From Thiotrichales bacterium (lineage in GTDB: Bacteria; Pseudomonadota; Gammaproteobacteria; Thiomicrospirales; Thiomicrospiraceae): DNA of 58,670 nucleotides. Location: the NCBI GenBank assembly GCA_022759035.1, contig JAEMQD010000013.1, positions 1 through 58,670 of the forward strand, given 5' to 3'. This document shows, one piece after another, positions 24,759 to 33,810 of this stretch (position 1 is its first letter; each line of letters opens with the position of its first letter). The position numbers and the translations under genes are program-made. The notes below the pieces were generated by a model. It had not been told where the DNA came from. It saw only the letters and a list, made by a program, of their open reading frames with translations, and made no database searches.

Positions 24759-25868
24759 ATGCCTAGTATGCAGCGCTATGCTATTTTTTGTACCGTTATC
24801 GACAACTACGGCGATATCGGTACAACATGGCGATTAGCACAACAATTATTACGGCACAATAAACAAGTAGAATTGTGGGTAGACAACCTACAAGCCCTAC
24901 AAAAACTCGTCCCCCAAACAAACCCTAAGCATATAAAACAACAACTCTCAGGCATTCTCGTTCAACACTGGCGAAATATACCTGAGTTTACTCAAGTCGC
25001 AGACGTTGTTATCGAAGCCTTCGCTTGCACTTTGCCAGAAAATTATCGTCAAGCAATGCTGGCTCATGGCAGCATTTGCATTAATTTAGAGTATTTTAGC
25101 TGCGAAGCTTGGGTTCAAGGATGTCATGGATTACGTTCTTTTCAACAAGATGGTTTAAAAAAATATTTTTTCTTTCCCGGCATTCAAAACAACACGGGCG
25201 GATTACTCTATGAAAAAAATTTGTTATCCGAACAACGACTTTTTCAATCAGTCCACACACAACAAGTTTGGTGTCAGCAATGGCAGATTCCCATCCCACG
25301 AACGAACGCCATAAAAATTAGTTTATTTGGTTACGAAAATATTGCCCTAGCCGATCTATTACAAAAACTTTCTCAGCACCCTCAACCGATCGACGCCTAT
25401 TTACCCATCAGCAAGTTGTGTCATTATTTAAACACCCTATTTCCAGAGGCACAAATTCAAGCTGGTGAAACCTTGATACTTGGTCAACTGCAACTACATT
25501 TAATTGACTTTTTACCGCAGAAAGAATTCGATTATTTATTATGGTTATGCGACCTTAATTTTGTTCGTGGTGAAGACTCGCTTGGACGCGCGCTCCTTGC
25601 TGCCAAGCCTGTCGTTTGGCACATATACCCTACCGAAGATAACGCCCACTGGGAAAAATTAACGGCATTTATAGAAGCTTACGAAATGCCAAAAAGTTTA
25701 CACGAACTAAACATTTCGTGGAATCAACAAACTTCATGTCACGCCTTGGCAACCGTTTTATCAGAATGTTCCGACTTGAAGCAACACGCAACACTTGTTC
25801 AGAAAAAAATACTTAGCCTGGGTGAATTAAGCACAAACCTAGTCAGCTTTATTGAAAGCAAGGTATAA
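24759..25868 (+). CDS. earP: EF-P arginine rhamnosyltransferase EarP
   Basis: Transfers rhamnose from dTDP-rhamnose to Arg32 of elongation factor P, which is required for EF-P to relieve polyproline stalling. The 369-residue protein has the GT-B N-terminal IFCTVIDNYGDIGTTWRLAQQL and a conserved C-terminal nucleotide-sugar segment, FVRGEDSLGRALLAAKPVVWHIYP, as in DUF2331/EarP proteins. The next gene is efp with Arg at position 32, which fixes the assignment. The start at 24759 directly follows the folD stop; an in-frame ATG at 24768 is possible. The rhamnose-synthesis genes (rmlABCD) are not in the window. Confidence 0.94.
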   Translation: MPSMQRYAIFCTVIDNYGDIGTTWRLAQQLLRHNKQVELWVDNLQALQKLVPQTNPKHIKQQLSGILVQHWRNIPEFTQVADVVIEAFACTLPENYRQAMLAHGSICINLEYFSCEAWVQGCHGLRSFQQDGLKKYFFFPGIQNNTGGLLYEKNLLSEQRLFQSVHTQQVWCQQWQIPIPRTNAIKISLFGYENIALADLLQKLSQHPQPIDAYLPISKLCHYLNTLFPEAQIQAGETLILGQLQLHLIDFLPQKEFDYLLWLCDLNFVRGEDSLGRALLAAKPVVWHIYPTEDNAHWEKLTAFIEAYEMPKSLHELNISWNQQTSCHALATVLSECSDLKQHATLVQKKILSLGELSTNLVSFIESKV

Positions 25869-25869
25869 T
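25840..25869 (+). promoter_or_regulatory. Probable efp promoter
   Basis: A perfect TATAAT (25864-25869) has a partial -35 TAGTCA (25840-25845) 18 bases upstream, inside the end of earP. Transcription would start about 30 bases before the efp ATG, giving efp its own expression in addition to readthrough from earP. Confidence 0.6.
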
Positions 25870-25907
25870 AGACAAGATTAAGTTAATTTTATTGTTTGGA
25901 ACCCCCC

Positions 25908-26468
25908 ATGAAAACTGCACAAGAATTTCGCTCTGGCAACGTAATGATGTTTGAAGGTCAACCGATGATCGTGTTGAAGGCAGAGTTTAGTAAATCTGGA
26001 CGCAACGCTGCTGTTGTTAAACTAAAACTTAAAAACTTACTTTCTGGCGCAGGCACAGAAACGGTTGTAAAAGCAGACGACAAATTTGACCAAGTCATTC
26101 TTGAGAAAAAAACCTGTACTTATAGCTACTTTGCTGATCCTTTATATGTCTTTATGGATGAAGAATACAACCCATACGAAGTCGAAAAAGACAACTTAGG
26201 CGATGCTCTAAACTATATTGAAGAAGGCATGACTGATGAAGTAGAAGTAACTTTCTATGAGGGCAAGCCAATCACCGTTGAGTTCCCAACAATTATTAAC
26301 CGTAAAGTGGTTTATACTGAAATGGCGGTTCGTGGTGATACTTCTGGTAAAGTGATGAAGCCTGCTCGCTTAGCAAGCGGTTTTGAGCTGCAAGTTGCGG
26401 CCTTTATCGAAACAGGTGAAATGATTGAAATTGATACGCGTACTGGCGAATTCCGCAAACGCGCGTAA
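25908..26468 (+). CDS. efp: Elongation factor P, Arg32 type
   Basis: Binds between the P and E sites to promote peptide bonds at polyproline. The 186-residue protein has three beta-barrel domains. The tip loop reads [11 protein letters not shown] with Arg at position 32 counted from the ATG at 25908. This is the rhamnosylated type, not the lysyl-lysine type (EpmA/EpmB) of E. coli. An in-frame TTG at 25896 would add four residues that shift the numbering and are non-conserved. An intrinsic terminator follows. Confidence 0.97.
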
Positions 26469-26487: not shown

Positions 26488-26513
26488 AAAAGCACCCTAC
26501 GGGGTGCTTTTTT
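26488..26513 (+). terminator. Intrinsic terminator after efp
   Basis: A stem AGCACCC (26491-26497) / GGGTGCT (26502-26508) with loop TACG, flanked by A-tract and T-tract, is followed by TTTTT. It ends the hemL-folD-earP-efp group. Its T-run overlaps the -35 of the next promoter. Confidence 0.9.
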
Positions 26514-26540
26514 GTTGTGATGCAACGCACATGTTACAAT
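26512..26540 (+). promoter_or_regulatory. Promoter of the mevalonate operon
   Basis: TTGTTG (26512-26517), a 17-base spacer and TACAAT (26535-26540) point toward mvaA. Initiation near 26547 gives a short leader of about 20 bases before the ATG at 26568. AGGAC is the ribosome binding site, eight bases upstream. Confidence 0.65.
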
Positions 26541-26567
26541 AAGCAATCCGCTATATCAGGACATACC

Positions 26568-27605
26568 ATGACGCACAGTTTTGCCGCGATTCCGATGCAA
26601 ACAATTGGTCCAATGAAACTCATCGGTGACATCAACGATGAAGTAGTTGTGCCACTCGCTACCTATGAAACGCCACTTTGGCCTTCGGTTAATCGCGGGG
26701 CGCGCACCTGTTCCGCCGCTGGTGGCATTCGTGTTACCTTGTTAGACGAACATATGAGCCGCTCGTTTGCAGTACAAGCTGCCAACGCACAAGCAGCCAG
26801 AGCAATCGCGCAGGCATTAGCGCAACGATTAGAAGAAGCATCGCTCGTTGTTGCCTCGACAAGTCGATTCGCGCGACTTAAGGCATTAAATACGCGTATT
26901 GTTGGTAGAATACTTTATATTCGCTTAGACATTCATAGTGGCGATGCCTCTGGGCATAACATGGTGACACAATCAGCCGAGCACCTACAAAACTGGGTAT
27001 TATCGCAATGGCCAGAATTAAACTACGTTAGCATTTCAGCAAACTATTGCACGGATAAAAAAGTGTCTGCCGTTAACAGTATTGAAGGACGAGGTAAGTC
27101 TGTCATTGCTGAATGCACACTACCAGAAAAGCTGGTAGCGCGTTATCTTAAAACAACACCACAACGACTTGTGGATTTACACATCCGTAAAAACTTAATT
27201 GGCAGCATTTTAGCCGGTAGCCTAATGTCCGCTAATGCACACGCTGCTAACATGCTACTCGCCTTTTTCTTAGCAACAGGTCAAGATGCAGCCAATATTG
27301 TTGAGGGCTCTCAAGCAATTGACCATGCTGAAGTATTAGAGGATGGCAGTCTTTATTTCTCGGTGAGTTTACCCAACTTAATTGTTGGCACCATCGGCAA
27401 CGGGAAAGGACTGGAATTTGTCACCGATAACCTAGCATTAATGGGTTGTTCGCCATCAGCAGATGCTGGCAGTAGTGCGCGCCGACTAGCTATGATTTGT
27501 GCAGCTACAGTACTTTGTGGCGAGCTTTCTTTACTTGCTGCACAAACCAATCCAGGCGAATTAATGCAATCGCATCGTAAACTAGAAAGGCATCAGCCAG
27601 CATGA
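26568..27605 (+). CDS. mvaA: HMG-CoA reductase, class I-like
   Basis: Reduces HMG-CoA to mevalonate, the committed step of the pathway. The 345-residue soluble protein keeps the four catalytic residues. They are Glu (TYETPLWPSVNRGA), Lys (NYCTDKKVSAVN), Asp (ATGQDAANIVEG) and a C-terminal His (MQSHRKLER). GDASGHNM and IEGRGKSVIAE are hallmarks of class I (NADPH-type, eukaryote/archaeal-like) rather than class II (Pseudomonas mevalonii type). No membrane anchor is present. The start at 26568 is supported by AGGAC upstream; a longer in-frame start at 26517 would overlap the promoter. The stop overlaps fni by four bases. Confidence 0.93.
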   Translation: MTHSFAAIPMQTIGPMKLIGDINDEVVVPLATYETPLWPSVNRGARTCSAAGGIRVTLLDEHMSRSFAVQAANAQAARAIAQALAQRLEEASLVVASTSRFARLKALNTRIVGRILYIRLDIHSGDASGHNMVTQSAEHLQNWVLSQWPELNYVSISANYCTDKKVSAVNSIEGRGKSVIAECTLPEKLVARYLKTTPQRLVDLHIRKNLIGSILAGSLMSANAHAANMLLAFFLATGQDAANIVEGSQAIDHAEVLEDGSLYFSVSLPNLIVGTIGNGKGLEFVTDNLALMGCSPSADAGSSARRLAMICAATVLCGELSLLAAQTNPGELMQSHRKLERHQPA

Positions 27606-28636
27606 GCATTGGCCAACGGAAACTTGATCATTTACACCATGTGCTTAACGATGCACAGGTTGATCGCAACGGACGTTATTTCGATGCATTTCGACTACTG
27701 CACAATGCATTACCAGAAATTAATTTATCTGATGTTGATATTCGCTGTACCTTTCTCAATAAAACATTAGATGCACCATTGCTAATCTCTTCTATGACTG
27801 GAGGAGATCATCCTGAATTAGCACGTATTAATCAACGCTTAGCCGAAGCAGCCGAAGCATGTGGTGTTGCCCTTGCAGTGGGATCTCAACGCATTCAATT
27901 TGAGCGCCCAGCATCGGTTGATAGCTTTAACTTGCGTCAATTTGCACCTAGCATTCCCTTGATTGCTAATCTGGGCGCAGTGCAATTAAACTATCAACTC
28001 AATGCACATCATGCCCAAGAAGCTGTCAATCAGCTCGATGCAGATGGCTTATACTTGCACCTAAATCCATTACAAGAAGCCATTCAGCCAGAGGGAGATA
28101 CTAATTTTTCTCATTTATGGTCAGCGATTACTGAACTAGCCACAACAATGGATAAGCCTTTATTGCTAAAAGAGGTGGGGTGCGGGCTTTCTCCACAATT
28201 GATTCGCCAAGGGCTAGCCCAAGGCATTCATTATTTTGACGTTGCTGGTAGTGGTGGCACATCATGGAGTCGTATTGAGCAATTACGTAGTGCAAACAAC
28301 CCTATTGGCCTAACTTTTCAGGACTGGGGGCTACCCACACCTTGGATTTTAAAGCAATGCAGACCAATTGCAACACAAGCACAACTCATTGCTAGTGGTG
28401 GATTACGCAATGGCGTAGATGTGGTAAAATCTATTGTCTTAGGTGCGCGCATCGCTGGAATGGCCGCTCCTTTTTTACAACCTGCTATGGAGTCGACACA
28501 AGCGGTGATTGATGTGATTGAACAAATCAAACAAGAGATTCGCATTAGTTTGTTTTTATTAGGAAAAAAAAATATCGACGCTATTTGGCTTAATAACAAT
28601 TTAATCGTTGATGTTGCAGAAGGTAATCCTTTATGA
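27602..28636 (+). CDS. fni: Isopentenyl-diphosphate isomerase, type 2
   Basis: FMN- and NADPH-dependent enzyme that interconverts IPP and DMAPP. The 344-residue TIM-barrel protein begins RKLDHLHHVL and shows PLLISSMTGG, VGSQRIQF, LHLNPLQEAIQPEGD and KEVGCGLSPQ. The FMN-phosphate segment VAGSGGTSWSRIE and the late IASGGLRNGVD are also present. The type 2 enzyme has no relation to type 1 Idi of E. coli. Start and stop overlap the neighbours as ATGA, so translation is coupled. An isomerase is needed here because the mevalonate route yields IPP only. Confidence 0.95.
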   Translation: MSIGQRKLDHLHHVLNDAQVDRNGRYFDAFRLLHNALPEINLSDVDIRCTFLNKTLDAPLLISSMTGGDHPELARINQRLAEAAEACGVALAVGSQRIQFERPASVDSFNLRQFAPSIPLIANLGAVQLNYQLNAHHAQEAVNQLDADGLYLHLNPLQEAIQPEGDTNFSHLWSAITELATTMDKPLLLKEVGCGLSPQLIRQGLAQGIHYFDVAGSGGTSWSRIEQLRSANNPIGLTFQDWGLPTPWILKQCRPIATQAQLIASGGLRNGVDVVKSIVLGARIAGMAAPFLQPAMESTQAVIDVIEQIKQEIRISLFLLGKKNIDAIWLNNNLIVDVAEGNPL

Positions 28637-29808
28637 GCGTTGGCATTCAACGAATCAGCTTTTATACTGCGCCATTCTACTTAGACATGAGCGAGTTTGC
28701 ACAAGCGCGAGGTGAAGAGCGCGATAAATTTCATATCGGAATTGGTCAAGACCAAATGAGCGTTATTTCACCCGATGAAGATATCGTAACGCTTGCTGCC
28801 AATGCAGCTTTGCCTATTATGCAAGAATTTGATCCAAAAACCATTACCGCGGTACTGTTTGCGACAGAAAGCGGCATTGACCAATCTAAGTCCGCAGGCG
28901 CCTTTGTGCATGGTTTATTGGGCTTATCGTCACGATGCCGTGTAGTAGAGCTGAAACATGCCTGTTATGGCGGCACAGCAGCATTACAAATGGCTGTCAA
29001 TATGGTTCGCGTCAATACGAGCGAGCGTGTACTTGTCATCGCTGCCGATGTAGCACGCTATGAACTTGGCTCACCAGGAGAAGCAACGCAAGGCTGTGGT
29101 GCAGTTGCCATGTTAATTAGCAACCAAGCTGACATCCTAGCGATTGAAGCTGGCTCTGGCTACTATACAGAAGATGTTATGGACTTTTGGCGCCCTAACT
29201 ATCGTGATACGGCATTAGTGGATGGTAAATACTCTACCATGGTCTACTTAACTGCATTGAAATATGCATGGCAATATTTTCAAGAAGAAAGACATCTCGC
29301 TTACAACGACTTCGCGCGTTTTTGCTATCACTTGCCTTTTACCAAAATGGCAATCAAAGCACATAGCCGACTAATGAAACTCACCGAACAAGAAGCAAAT
29401 GAAGCGACCATTGAACAAGCAATGGGATCTTCATTACGTTACAACCGCACTGTTGGTAACAGTTACAGTGCTTCGCTTTACTTCGGTTTAATTTCATTAT
29501 TGGAAAACGATGCAGAAAACCTTGCTGGCCAACGTATCGGCTTATTTAGCTATGGCTCTGGCTGCGTAGGCGAGTTTTTTAGCGGCATTGTTGCTGATCG
29601 TTATCGCGATTATTTATATACAACAAAACACCAAACTTTACTCGCGGCACGCCAGCAACTTACTTTTTCGACATATTTGGCCTTTTATAAGCAGTTTGGT
29701 GAGGTCGAGCGCAACGACAATATTGAAATAGCGCATTATACTAATGGTCACTTCAGACTCAGCGCTATTCGTGCGCACAAACGTCAGTATGTTCAGCAGT
29801 CAAGCTAG
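28633..29808 (+). CDS. mvaS: HMG-CoA synthase
   Basis: Condenses acetoacetyl-CoA with acetyl-CoA to HMG-CoA. The 391-residue thiolase-fold enzyme has the catalytic triad at the numbering of the S. aureus enzyme: Glu79 (ATESGID), Cys111 (KHACYGGTAAL) and His233 (CYHLPFTKMA). The C-terminal SYGSGCVGEFFSG is conserved. The start overlaps fni by four bases. The stop lies 20 bases inside mvaK1. No acetoacetyl-CoA thiolase is in the operon, so that step must be supplied elsewhere. Confidence 0.96.
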   Translation: MSVGIQRISFYTAPFYLDMSEFAQARGEERDKFHIGIGQDQMSVISPDEDIVTLAANAALPIMQEFDPKTITAVLFATESGIDQSKSAGAFVHGLLGLSSRCRVVELKHACYGGTAALQMAVNMVRVNTSERVLVIAADVARYELGSPGEATQGCGAVAMLISNQADILAIEAGSGYYTEDVMDFWRPNYRDTALVDGKYSTMVYLTALKYAWQYFQEERHLAYNDFARFCYHLPFTKMAIKAHSRLMKLTEQEANEATIEQAMGSSLRYNRTVGNSYSASLYFGLISLLENDAENLAGQRIGLFSYGSGCVGEFFSGIVADRYRDYLYTTKHQTLLAARQQLTFSTYLAFYKQFGEVERNDNIEIAHYTNGHFRLSAIRAHKRQYVQQSS

Positions 29809-30766
29809 CAGTAAACTTATTTTAGCGGGTGAACATGGTGTTGTTTATGGTGGTTCAGCGCTAACAACGCGTTTAATTTGGGAAACGCGTTGCCAACTCA
29901 GTACCGCCACGCAAGCCCACCTTAAATTAAGCGACGGTAGCGAACAAGATTGGCGGCCAGATACGCTCCATCAACATTGGCAAACCTTACAAGCACGCCA
30001 CCAAGATTGGCAAGCAACCAACAACCCCATTATTCAAAATCTGTTCGACCTGCCGCTTGCTGTACTCGCTTGGTGGCAAACGCACTATACCCTGCCTAGC
30101 TTAGCAATCCACTTGCAAAGCGATATTCCCATCGGACAAGGATTAGGCTCTTCAGCGAGTTTAATTATCGCAATGCTAAAAGGGTTAATGCAAGCTAGTG
30201 GTATTTCATTTACACTGCAACAACTGCAAACAGCAGCAACTGAACTTGAGCAACTAGCTCATGGAAAGTCTTCTGGATTAGATGTTGCCGCCATTTTACT
30301 TGCTGATCGGTTATTTTGGCAGCCTACACAAATTACCCTATTGCCTAACTACCCGCTTACTGGCTATTTAGTAGATACTGGTAAAGCCAATAGTAGCACC
30401 GCAGACTGTGTTGGATGGGTAAAACAACATGCAAAAAACAAACCATTATGGGCAACAATGGAAAGCGCAACACGCACATTAAAACAAGCTTTGTCAGATA
30501 ATGCGCTAAATGCGCAACAGCAAGCTATTCAAACGTTACACCAACTACTATGCTCGCTTGGCGTTGTTCCTAAAAAGGTAGCGCAATTCGCTTCAGCAGC
30601 ACAACAACAAGGCTGGTCGGGTAAACTTTGTGGCGCGGGGAGCATTCGAGGTGATGGCGGCGGTTTTTTCTGGCTCTTAGCCGACGCTGAACCAGACACA
30701 TTATGCCATGAGTATGGCTACCAGTATTGGCGATTATCCGAACTTTCACAAATTGCAATGCCATGA
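29789..30766 (+). CDS. mvaK1: Mevalonate kinase (GHMP family)
   Basis: Phosphorylates mevalonate to mevalonate-5-phosphate. The 325-residue protein has motif 1 KLILAGEHGVVYGG, ATP-binding motif 2 IPIGQGLGSSASL and AHGKSSGLDVAA with the catalytic Asp, the mevalonate-kinase hallmark. Motif 3 reads KLCGAG followed by SIRGDGGG, an enlarged version of the usual GAGxGG loop. The start at 29789 (MFSSQASSKL) lies inside the end of mvaS; a longer frame starting at 29744 is less likely. No separate ribosome binding site is evident, suggesting coupling. Confidence 0.88.
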   Translation: MFSSQASSKLILAGEHGVVYGGSALTTRLIWETRCQLSTATQAHLKLSDGSEQDWRPDTLHQHWQTLQARHQDWQATNNPIIQNLFDLPLAVLAWWQTHYTLPSLAIHLQSDIPIGQGLGSSASLIIAMLKGLMQASGISFTLQQLQTAATELEQLAHGKSSGLDVAAILLADRLFWQPTQITLLPNYPLTGYLVDTGKANSSTADCVGWVKQHAKNKPLWATMESATRTLKQALSDNALNAQQQAIQTLHQLLCSLGVVPKKVAQFASAAQQQGWSGKLCGAGSIRGDGGGFFWLLADAEPDTLCHEYGYQYWRLSELSQIAMP

Positions 30767-31731
30767 TGAAAACGAATTTATTACCCACATCTTGGGTCAG
30801 CCATGCACCAGGGAGTTTAATGCTATTTGGTGAGCATGCCGTATTACATGGTTATCCCGCTATTGCCTGTGCAATAGACAACTGGTTACATATTCATTGG
30901 CAACGGCGTGATGATCAACAACTGATTATCCATAGCAGCTTTGCGCAATACCAAACCACATGGAGTCAACTCGAAGCGCACCCTAAATTAAGCTTTGTTG
31001 TCACTTTATTAAAGCACTTTCAAGCAGCTTATCCAGAGGCTTGCATCTGTGGTTTAAGCATAGAGATTAAAAGCGACATTAATAGCACGCAAGGCCTTGG
31101 CAGCTCCAGCGCAGTTGTTGCAGCAATGGTTACTGGCTTAGGTAAGCTTACCAATAAACTAAACGATATTGCTCCTCGATTTCAGCTCGGCTTAGATACC
31201 ATTAGAACTGTACAAGGTACTGGCTCAGGTACTGATTTAGCGGCCGCATTATCTGGCGGCATTATGCACTTCACACCAGCAACACAAAAAATTCAACGCC
31301 TTGCCGACAACTTAGCAATTGTGAGCATTTACTGCGGTTATAAAACACCTACAGCACAAGTCATACAACATGTTGAACAAAAGTGGCCAAACCAACATCC
31401 GCTCTTCAGGCGTTGGTTAAATTGGATCACAGACTTAACGAATATGGCAGCACAAGCCATTACAGAAAACGATAACGACATGCTCGGGCGTTGCATGGAT
31501 ATGGCGCATGGCTTGATGCACGGACTGGGTGTTAGCGATAATCAACTCGATCAACTTACACATCAACTTCGAGAAACACCTGGTATTTATGGTGCCAAAA
31601 TCTCTGGTTCTGGTTTGGGCGATTGTGTCATTGGCTTGGGCAAACCAGAAACCCAGCTAAAACATGCACTCAATATTCATACAACTGCTCTAGGGGCATA
31701 TTGCTCGCAGGAGGTATTTCATCATGATTAG
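30763..31731 (+). CDS. mvaK2: Phosphomevalonate kinase (GHMP family)
   Basis: Probably phosphorylates mevalonate-5-phosphate to the diphosphate. The 322-residue protein starts with APGSLMLFGEHAVLHG and carries STQGLGSSSAVVAA and GTGSGTDLAAALSGG. The late SGSGLGDCVIG parallels the GGGDC segment of S. aureus MvaK2. The N-terminus alone looks like a mevalonate kinase, so the assignment rests on the later motifs and on mvaK1 being better matched by its neighbour. The ATG overlaps the mvaK1 stop (ATGA). Moderate confidence on the exact substrate, high on GHMP kinase. Confidence 0.8.
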   Translation: MMKTNLLPTSWVSHAPGSLMLFGEHAVLHGYPAIACAIDNWLHIHWQRRDDQQLIIHSSFAQYQTTWSQLEAHPKLSFVVTLLKHFQAAYPEACICGLSIEIKSDINSTQGLGSSSAVVAAMVTGLGKLTNKLNDIAPRFQLGLDTIRTVQGTGSGTDLAAALSGGIMHFTPATQKIQRLADNLAIVSIYCGYKTPTAQVIQHVEQKWPNQHPLFRRWLNWITDLTNMAAQAITENDNDMLGRCMDMAHGLMHGLGVSDNQLDQLTHQLRETPGIYGAKISGSGLGDCVIGLGKPETQLKHALNIHTTALGAYCSQEVFHHD

Positions 31732-32722
31732 TGCGCAAACCATCGTCAATCAATTGATTCATCAGAACGCACCATACAGTCCAAAAACCGAAGGCACAGC
31801 ATTTGCACCAGTCAACATTGCGCTTATTAAATACTGGGGAAAACGCAATAACGCATTAAATCTGCCCGTCACAGACAGTTTATCTATCGGACTACGCACA
31901 CTAGGCACAACAACCAGCATTCGCTTACACCAAGGGCAAGATATTATCTACCTCAACAACGAGCGCTTGCCATTTGATCACCCTTTTGCACAACGAACTA
32001 GTCGCTATTTAGACTTATTTCGCCGGCAGCCCAATGATGGCTTTATGGTCATGACAAAAAATGACGTACCAACAGGTGCCGGCCTCGCCTCCTCTGCCTC
32101 TGGCTATGCGGCGCTTGTGTTGGCTTTAAATGATCTTTTTCAATGGCAGTTGGATAAAACTCAACTTTCCATTTTAGCACGCATAGGTTCAGGCAGTGCC
32201 TGCCGTTCGTTATGGGATGGACTGGTACACTGGCACGCAGGACAACAGGACGATGGCTTAGATAGTTACGCAACACCTTTAGTCTATCAGCTACCCACTT
32301 TGCGGATCGGATTATTAACGCTATCTAATAAAACCAAACCTGTTAGCTCACGAATTGGCATGCAACAAACGGTACACGGCCTAAGTCTTTACCCTGCATG
32401 GAAAACGATGGTTGATACCCATCTAACACAAATAACACAAGCCTTCGAAAAGCAAGACATTAACGGCATTGGTAAAATTAGCGAACATAATGCGCTCGCC
32501 ATGCATGCGACAATGTTATCGGCATCACCCGCGCTTTGCTACTTCTTACCAGAAACACTCGCGACGCTACAAACTTTATGGTCTGCACGTGAAGCTGGCT
32601 TAAACTGCTGGGCAACATTAGATGCTGGCCCTAATGTTAAGCTCTTATTTGAAGCAGAAACAGCGCACGATGTTAAGAAACTCTTTCCTGATATCAATAT
32701 TATTCAGCCTTTCGTCTCATAG
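31724..32722 (+). CDS. mvaD: Diphosphomevalonate decarboxylase
   Basis: ATP-dependent decarboxylation of mevalonate diphosphate to IPP, the last step of the pathway. The 332-residue protein has the signature APVNIALIKYWGKRN near the N-terminus, GAGLASSASGYAAL as the phosphate loop, GSGSACRSLWDG and TLDAGPNVKLL with the catalytic Asp. A strong AGGAGG precedes the ATG by 11 bases, and the start overlaps mvaK2 by eight bases. It ends the operon, followed by a bidirectional terminator. Confidence 0.95.
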   Translation: MISAQTIVNQLIHQNAPYSPKTEGTAFAPVNIALIKYWGKRNNALNLPVTDSLSIGLRTLGTTTSIRLHQGQDIIYLNNERLPFDHPFAQRTSRYLDLFRRQPNDGFMVMTKNDVPTGAGLASSASGYAALVLALNDLFQWQLDKTQLSILARIGSGSACRSLWDGLVHWHAGQQDDGLDSYATPLVYQLPTLRIGLLTLSNKTKPVSSRIGMQQTVHGLSLYPAWKTMVDTHLTQITQAFEKQDINGIGKISEHNALAMHATMLSASPALCYFLPETLATLQTLWSAREAGLNCWATLDAGPNVKLLFEAETAHDVKKLFPDINIIQPFVS

Positions 32723-32730
32723 TACTAAAT

Positions 32731-32757
32731 AAAAAGCCACCTAAACGGTGGCTTTTT
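32731..32757. terminator. Bidirectional terminator between mvaD and sspB
   Basis: An 11-bp perfect stem, AAAAAGCCACC (32731-32741) with GGTGGCTTTTT (32747-32757), has a five-base loop. The A and T tracts allow termination of mvaD on plus and sspB on minus. Confidence 0.93.
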
Positions 32758-32780: not shown

Positions 32781-33200
32781 TTACTTTACGATACTTAAGT
32801 GACTTCGATCTCGCTTAGGTTTTGTTGCTTGCGGAGCAGCTTCAACCTCACGTGGATTCGTTTCTACCGCTGACAAAGCGGCTTCACTCATATCAGGTGG
32901 CGGGAACCCCATACCCTGTGCATTCTCTTTCGCAAAAATAGCTAATACCGCCGCAATCGGCACATACACGCCCATTGCTTTACCGCGAAAGCGCGCCTCA
33001 AAACCAATAAAATCATTCGTTAGCTGTAATCGATTGGTTGCTTGCGCAGCAATATTGAGCACGAGCACACCGTTGTCATCAAAACCCTCTGGTGCAACAA
33101 CACCAGGATAGTTTACCTGAACTTGCAGGTATGGCGTACAACCACTATCTACTATCCAATCATACAATGCTCGAATTAAGTAAGGCTTTTGATCACGCAT
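32781..33200 (-). CDS. sspB: ClpXP adaptor SspB
   Basis: Delivers ssrA-tagged proteins to ClpXP. The 139-residue protein has a substrate-binding domain (PYLIRALYDWIVDSGCTPYL through GVYVPIAAVLAIFA) and a flexible acidic linker. It ends in the ClpX-docking tail RDRSHLSIVK, equivalent to the RPALRVVK of E. coli. The start at 33200 (MRDQKPY) follows the sspA stop by four bases, and GGGAG lies within the end of sspA. A longer in-frame start at 33230 would overlap sspA. Cotranscribed with sspA. Confidence 0.94.
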   Translation of the reverse strand: MRDQKPYLIRALYDWIVDSGCTPYLQVQVNYPGVVAPEGFDDNGVLVLNIAAQATNRLQLTNDFIGFEARFRGKAMGVYVPIAAVLAIFAKENAQGMGFPPPDMSEAALSAVETNPREVEAAPQATKPKRDRSHLSIVK

Positions 33201-33204
33201 CACG

Positions 33205-33810
33205 TTAAATGTCTCCCATTTCCAACTCAAGATCCGTCAAACTATCTCGAAACGCCTCGCGATTAAACATGCGTTTAGCATATTCATGAAAAGTTTTATG
33301 TGTTTTAGGAATATCAATACCTAACGCATTCAAGCGCCAAAAAATGACCGACAAAGTTACATCAACGACAGTATATTCATCACTCATAAAGTATGGCTTA
33401 TGCTGGAAAGCAGGCGTTAACTTAATGAACTCTTCCTTCAACAATTTGCGTGCCTTTTCTACACCCTTTTTATCTTCCCCAGATGAAATAAGCTGAATAC
33501 TTGGCTCCCACTCACGGCGAATGTAATTAAGCGTTTGACGCGCTGTCGCACGTACCTGCGGATCAACAGGCATCATTGGTGGAAAAGGATAACGCTCATC
33601 CAAAAACTCAATCATAACTAATGGATCATAGAGCTTTAAATCGCGCTCAACCAACGCTGGCAATGTGCCATAAGGACTTGCTAGTAGAACATCTTCTGGC
33701 AATGCATGAGGATCGACTTCTTTAATGTCCATCATAATATCTTTTTCTTTAACCACTACGCGAACACGATGTGAATTAAAGTCAGAAGGATCAGAAAATA
33801 GCGTCATCAT
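33205..33810 (-). CDS. sspA: Stringent starvation protein A
   Basis: RNA polymerase-associated regulator of the glutathione S-transferase fold, active in starvation and acid stress. The 201-residue protein has a thioredoxin-like N-terminal half (LFSDPSDFNSHRVRVVVKEK, YGTLPALVERDLKLYDP) and an all-helical C-terminal half. GGAG precedes the ATG by eight bases. ATGATG leaves the exact start at 33810 or 33807. The sspA-sspB-petABC neighbourhood is common in proteobacteria. Upstream lies the pet terminator. Confidence 0.95.
   Translation of the reverse strand: MMTLFSDPSDFNSHRVRVVVKEKDIMMDIKEVDPHALPEDVLLASPYGTLPALVERDLKLYDPLVMIEFLDERYPFPPMMPVDPQVRATARQTLNYIRREWEPSIQLISSGEDKKGVEKARKLLKEEFIKLTPAFQHKPYFMSDEYTVVDVTLSVIFWRLNALGIDIPKTHKTFHEYAKRMFNREAFRDSLTDLELEMGDI

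Follow-up and report, generated by a model that had tools for sequence, protein, structure and literature searches.

A complete mevalonate operon, very probably the sole route to isoprenoid precursors, in a gammaproteobacterium of the order Thiomicrospirales

Introduction

The mevalonate route to isoprenoid precursors is usually associated with animals and archaea, and the MEP route is the usual one in bacteria. A run of six mevalonate pathway genes in the window (the whole stretch of DNA analysed, 58,670 nucleotides of contig JAEMQD010000013.1 from a gammaproteobacterium deposited as Thiotrichales bacterium) raises the question of whether such an operon supplements the MEP route of its host or has replaced it, and of how long it has been resident. 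The nearest named relatives of the window are Thiomicrospira, Hydrogenovibrio, Thiomicrorhabdus and Thiotrichales genomes from metagenomes. The complete operon is very probably the only route by which this bacterium and the rest of its order, Thiomicrospirales, make isoprenoid precursors; it would have been gained before the order diversified, with loss of the MEP route and vertical inheritance since.

Organisation of the operon

Open reading frame calls and family models place six intact and co-directional genes, mvaA-fni-mvaS-mvaK1-mvaK2-mvaD, at 26568-32722 on the forward strand, overlapping translationally and together encoding the span from acetoacetyl-CoA to IPP and DMAPP, so that the complete six-gene operon proposed for this gammaproteobacterium in an earlier, sequence-only reading is borne out. 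The features of the locus are as follows.

26488-26511, forward strand: intrinsic terminator of efp, a 10-pair stem followed by a T run, the upstream boundary of the operon
26532-26540, forward strand: possible extended -10 element of the operon promoter, TGTTACAAT, from sequence only and under the scan threshold
26568-27605, forward strand: mvaA, HMG-CoA reductase (class I-like soluble catalytic domain), from TIGR00533, PF00368 and catalytic residues
27602-28636, forward strand: fni, type 2 (FMN) isopentenyl-diphosphate isomerase, from TIGR02151
28633-29808, forward strand: mvaS, HMG-CoA synthase, from TIGR01835 and catalytic residues
29789-30766, forward strand: mvaK1, mevalonate kinase, from seven catalytic positions, with TIGR00549 under cut-off
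30763-31731, forward strand: mvaK2, predicted phosphomevalonate kinase of a divergent, mevalonate-kinase-like type, from position and residue pattern
31724-32722, forward strand: mvaD, diphosphomevalonate decarboxylase, from TIGR01240 and conserved Lys, Arg and Asp
32731-32757, forward strand: operon terminator hairpin, common to the convergent sspB (folding energy -18.6 kcal/mol, z -7.3 against shuffled sequences)
32781-33230, reverse strand: sspB-like gene, a convergent neighbour kept across the order, from tblastn synteny

Four-base ATGA overlaps join mvaA to fni, fni to mvaS and mvaK1 to mvaK2, and the overlaps at mvaS/mvaK1 and mvaK2/mvaD measure 20 and 8 bases, respectively, as expected for translationally coupled genes. 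The start of mvaA is likely the ATG at 26568, which has an AGGA ribosome-binding site ahead of it; a GTG at 26517 had been taken as the start and was corrected to this codon, and the corrected starts of the following genes lie at 29789 (mvaK1, ATG), 30763 (mvaK2, ATG) and 31724 (mvaD). Upstream, the gene for the EF-P arginine rhamnosyltransferase, earP, occupies 24759-26468 of the window, directly 5' of efp.

The strong efp terminator just 5' of the operon supports its separate transcription, and the overlapping junctions and flanking terminators suggest that the six genes are co-transcribed. The terminator proposed beyond mvaD is real as a structure, judging by its folding energy. The proposal that the operon has its own promoter at 26512-26540 fares less evenly: TGTTACAAT is plausible, and only that, as an extended -10, but its -35 is weak, its score falls below the threshold of the promoter scan, and the scan as a whole returned 20 sites against 22.6 expected by chance, which is no excess. 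The operon is presumably expressed.

Assignment of the enzymes

MvaA scores 300.7 bits against PF00368 and 305.9 bits against the class I HMG-CoA reductase model TIGR00533, under the cut-off of 441.8, with a match that covers the catalytic domain only, and its catalytic residues E34, K164, D240 and H336 are invariant across 69 sequences. Fni (362 bits against TIGR02151, cut-off 281) and MvaS (486 bits against TIGR01835, cut-off 360) are recognised directly, and in MvaS the catalytic E79, C111 and H233 are invariant across 83 sequences. MvaD reaches 252 bits with the diphosphomevalonate decarboxylase model TIGR01240 (cut-off 171), and its catalytic Lys, Arg and Asp are conserved across 117 sequences. 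All six functions of the pathway are thus found together, five through family models and phosphomevalonate kinase through position and residue pattern only.

From these assignments, MvaS would condense acetyl-CoA with acetoacetyl-CoA, MvaA would reduce the resulting HMG-CoA to mevalonate, MvaK1 and MvaK2 would phosphorylate mevalonate in two steps, MvaD would decarboxylate the diphosphate to IPP, and Fni would form DMAPP.

Which kinase catalyses which step is something that we infer. Against the mevalonate kinase model TIGR00549 (cut-off 163), MvaK1 scores 133.9 bits, under the cut-off, and MvaK2 169.9 bits, above it; against the phosphomevalonate kinase model TIGR01220, MvaK2 scores 57.5 bits where 165.7 is the cut-off, and no phosphomevalonate kinase family model exceeded its cut-off for this protein. 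MvaK2 thus falls outside the TIGR01220 subfamily, yet may still have phosphomevalonate kinase function. The catalytic residues sort the two proteins differently from the models. At the seven catalytic positions of mevalonate kinase (Lys13, Glu19, His20, Ser146, Glu193, Asp204 and Thr243 in rat numbering), MvaK1 is invariant across 50 homologues, whereas among 104 homologues of MvaK2 the Lys13 position is Ser or Asn in 99 and the Glu193 position is Ile, Val or Met in 102. A different lysine, Lys206 (numbered in the open reading frame from 30727), lies three residues before the equivalent of Thr243 and is kept in 102 of the 104. Thr209, in the same numbering, is also conserved. Lys206 may bind the 5-phosphate. 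Predicted structures of both kinases have the GHMP kinase fold (pLDDT 94.7 and 91.4), and fold searches separated mevalonate kinase from phosphomevalonate kinase for neither protein.

The position of the gene can be compared with a known system. Paracoccus zeaxanthinifaciens carries a cluster, mvaA-idi-hcs-mvk-pmk-mvd (Humbelin 2002, cited in PMC6742980), which has been expressed in Rhodobacter capsulatus (PMC6742980). Its six functions and their sequence along the DNA, over about 6.3 kb, are those of the operon in the window, a likeness of gene order; its host is an alphaproteobacterium, unlike the gammaproteobacterium studied here. Plasmid searches for the Paracoccus cluster returned only distant mevalonate genes.

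Because of its residue pattern, and because its position is that of pmk in the Paracoccus cluster, MvaK2 is probably the phosphomevalonate kinase. It is improbable that mvaK2 instead encodes a second mevalonate kinase, with the pathway running through another branch such as phosphomevalonate decarboxylation followed by isopentenyl phosphate kinase. NCBIfam does place MvaK2 above its mevalonate kinase cut-off and below those of all phosphomevalonate kinase models, and mevalonate kinases and Lin0012 tie as matches to its predicted fold, but MvaK2 lacks two mevalonate kinase catalytic residues where MvaK1 has all seven, the gene at the same position in P. zeaxanthinifaciens is pmk, and MvaD, which prefers the diphosphomevalonate model, scores only 102 bits against the phosphomevalonate decarboxylase model (cut-off 475). 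The assignment of MvaK2 as a phosphomevalonate kinase bears on a wider annotation problem. A 2026 survey reported that all Legionella analysed are without a phosphomevalonate kinase and called for a search for alternative enzymes (PMC13001223). Kinases of the MvaK2 type, labelled mevalonate kinase by the models, are a candidate answer and may explain phosphomevalonate kinases that appear to be missing in automatic annotation, the Legionella case among them.

Replacement of the MEP route

The genome that carries the window (2.25 Mb, 99.5% complete) and 62 others, 63 genomes from 7 genera of the order in all, were searched with family models for which control genomes (E. coli and others) behaved as expected. 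Dxr exceeded its cut-off in none of the 63, the window's own genome included, and neither did Dxs, whose weak matches are transketolase-like; the sole Dxs-model match in the own genome is a transketolase (991 bits) whose gene adjoins, by eye, apparent gap, pgk, pyk and fba genes. IspG and IspH were found in none of four genomes of the genus. MvaD, by contrast, is present in 60 of the 63, in all 50 near-complete genomes and in all 7 genera. The search covered Dxs, Dxr, IspG and IspH; a partial remnant of the MEP route, among IspD, IspE and IspF, is possible.

The absence of Dxr, Dxs, IspG and IspH indicates that the operon replaces the MEP route, and of the two roles, replacement or supplement, between which the sequence-only reading had not chosen, it is the former that the survey selects. 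That the operon merely supplements a working MEP pathway is extremely improbable: both pathways do occur together in about 2% of bacterial species (PMC13001223), and Dxr accompanies MvaD in 2 of 41 sampled genomes of the class, but the own genome, nearly complete, is without Dxr and Dxs, as are all members of the order, and the genus is without IspG and IspH.

Supply of 1-deoxyxylulose 5-phosphate

Loss of Dxs has consequences beyond isoprenoids. The product of Dxs, 1-deoxyxylulose 5-phosphate (DXP), is used for isoprenoids and also by PdxJ, for vitamin B6, and by ThiG, for the thiazole of vitamin B1. Both enzymes are retained in the order: PdxJ was found in 13 of 15 sampled genomes, including the own genome (388.8 bits, over cut-off), and ThiG in 23 of 24. 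In the own genome they lie at C23:12607-13305 (L158) and C61:6962-7699 (L169), respectively, with ThiC and ThiO adjoining ThiG, and the genes around the two are ordinary housekeeping and thiamine ones, with no candidate for a DXP synthase among them. Across the class, 38 genomes with MvaD include 4 with Dxs over cut-off and 26 with PdxJ.

Retention of PdxJ and ThiG where Dxs is absent would require trace DXP from another enzyme, an unrecognised DXP synthase or a different substrate; mutants of AceE and RibB of E. coli produce DXP, through changes at Q408, L633 and E636 of AceE and at G108 and D113 of RibB (PMC3424233). There is perhaps an even chance that DXP is made, here and in many other mevalonate-using Gammaproteobacteria, by an enzyme not yet recognised or by a known enzyme with a recruited activity, the argument being one from absence that is based on a single family model, that of Dxs. 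A literature search of partial coverage found no paper on a DXP gap in mevalonate-using bacteria. The most interesting lead to come from this locus, and a testable one, is how PdxJ and ThiG are supplied in bacteria that lack Dxs.

Distribution across the Gammaproteobacteria

Of 369 Gammaproteobacteria drawn evenly, at one to four genomes per family, 41, from about 21 families, had MvaD over its cut-off and 293 had Dxr. The two hardly coincide: Dxr is present in 291 of the 328 genomes without MvaD but in only 2 of the 41 that have it (Fisher p about 5e-29, uncorrected for relatedness). In one genome that has MvaD alongside an intact Dxr (G126), dxs lies in three frames with two stops (C1:1288994-1290830), a break that reflects either ongoing decay of the MEP route or sequencing errors. 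For bacteria at large, the 2026 survey gives 12% with mevalonate, 83% with MEP and 2.4% with both (PMC13001223).

Mevalonate use is thus confined to a minority of the class but recurs within it, and the earlier statement that mevalonate operons are known from no more than scattered lineages, Legionella and Coxiella among them, proves too narrow, given the order-wide occurrence, the Nitrincolaceae and the 41 sampled genomes. By published description, Coxiella and Legionella use mevalonate instead of MEP, as does the order of the window (PMC9803151, PMC9997736); they differ in being intracellular lineages and, for Legionella, in the reported lack of a phosphomevalonate kinase (PMC13001223). In the Nitrincolaceae (Marinobacterium, Amphritea, Neptuniibacter and Nitrincola) the operon has the gene order of the window, with MvaS 53-57% identical, but it lies in a different genomic neighbourhood. 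The operon itself belongs to an already known kind and is order-wide in Thiomicrospirales; a literature search for mevalonate use by Thiomicrospira or Hydrogenovibrio turned up no paper. The view that emerges is of mevalonate use as a trait of a whole order of free-living sulfur oxidisers, beyond a few intracellular genera, with near-complete exclusion of the MEP route.

Inheritance and history

In the MvaS tree the order forms one clade (support 99/98), and in several of its genera sspB/sspA follow mvaD, an arrangement absent beside the Nitrincolaceae operon by tblastn synteny. The single MvaS clade and the conserved sspB/sspA neighbour imply that any acquisition predates diversification of the order. 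Composition agrees, GC and GC3 of the operon being the same as those of neighbouring genes, and the earlier impressions of a neighbourhood-like GC and of an old residence are both upheld. The MvaD tree is less clear-cut: in it the window's genus is not firmly joined to the other members of the order, although a single clade is not rejected (p-AU 0.42).

A transfer into this genome in particular, an idea raised along with the operon, is not supported, given the order-wide MvaS clade and the conserved neighbour, and recent horizontal transfer into the window's genome or genus alone is very improbable. The genus does have efp/earP upstream, a long branch and an MvaD loosely placed in its tree, features that such a transfer would accommodate, but against it stand the MvaS clade, the sspB/sspA neighbour common to several genera, the neighbour-like composition and the presence of MvaD in each of the 7 genera. 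The simplest account is a single gain that preceded diversification of the order, with loss of the MEP route and then vertical descent.

Exchange over longer distances has nevertheless marked this operon family. Part of the operon is shared across phyla by loci of Kiritimatiellota (L066, L068, L071, L076, L094, L099, L101, L102, L103, L106 and L111). Kiritimatiellota have fni-mvaS-mvaK1-mvaK2, and their MvaS groups with that of Nitrincolaceae (99/98, midpoint root), a grouping which, with the gene order, indicates that long-distance transfer has happened. Nor is the operon fixed, since mvaK1-mvaK2-mvaD lie away from mvaS in several Hydrogenovibrio-type relatives: in Hydrogenovibrio halophilus, H. 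sp. SC-1, Thiomicrospira sp. WB1 and a related MAG (L047, L055, L075 and L112), mvaA-fni-mvaS occur without the other three genes within 6 kb. Inserts also separate mvaK1 from mvaK2, of about 3.3 kb in a Thiomicrospira MAG (L035:8122-11379) and of about 2.4 kb in a Kiritimatiellales MAG (L102:8133-10558).
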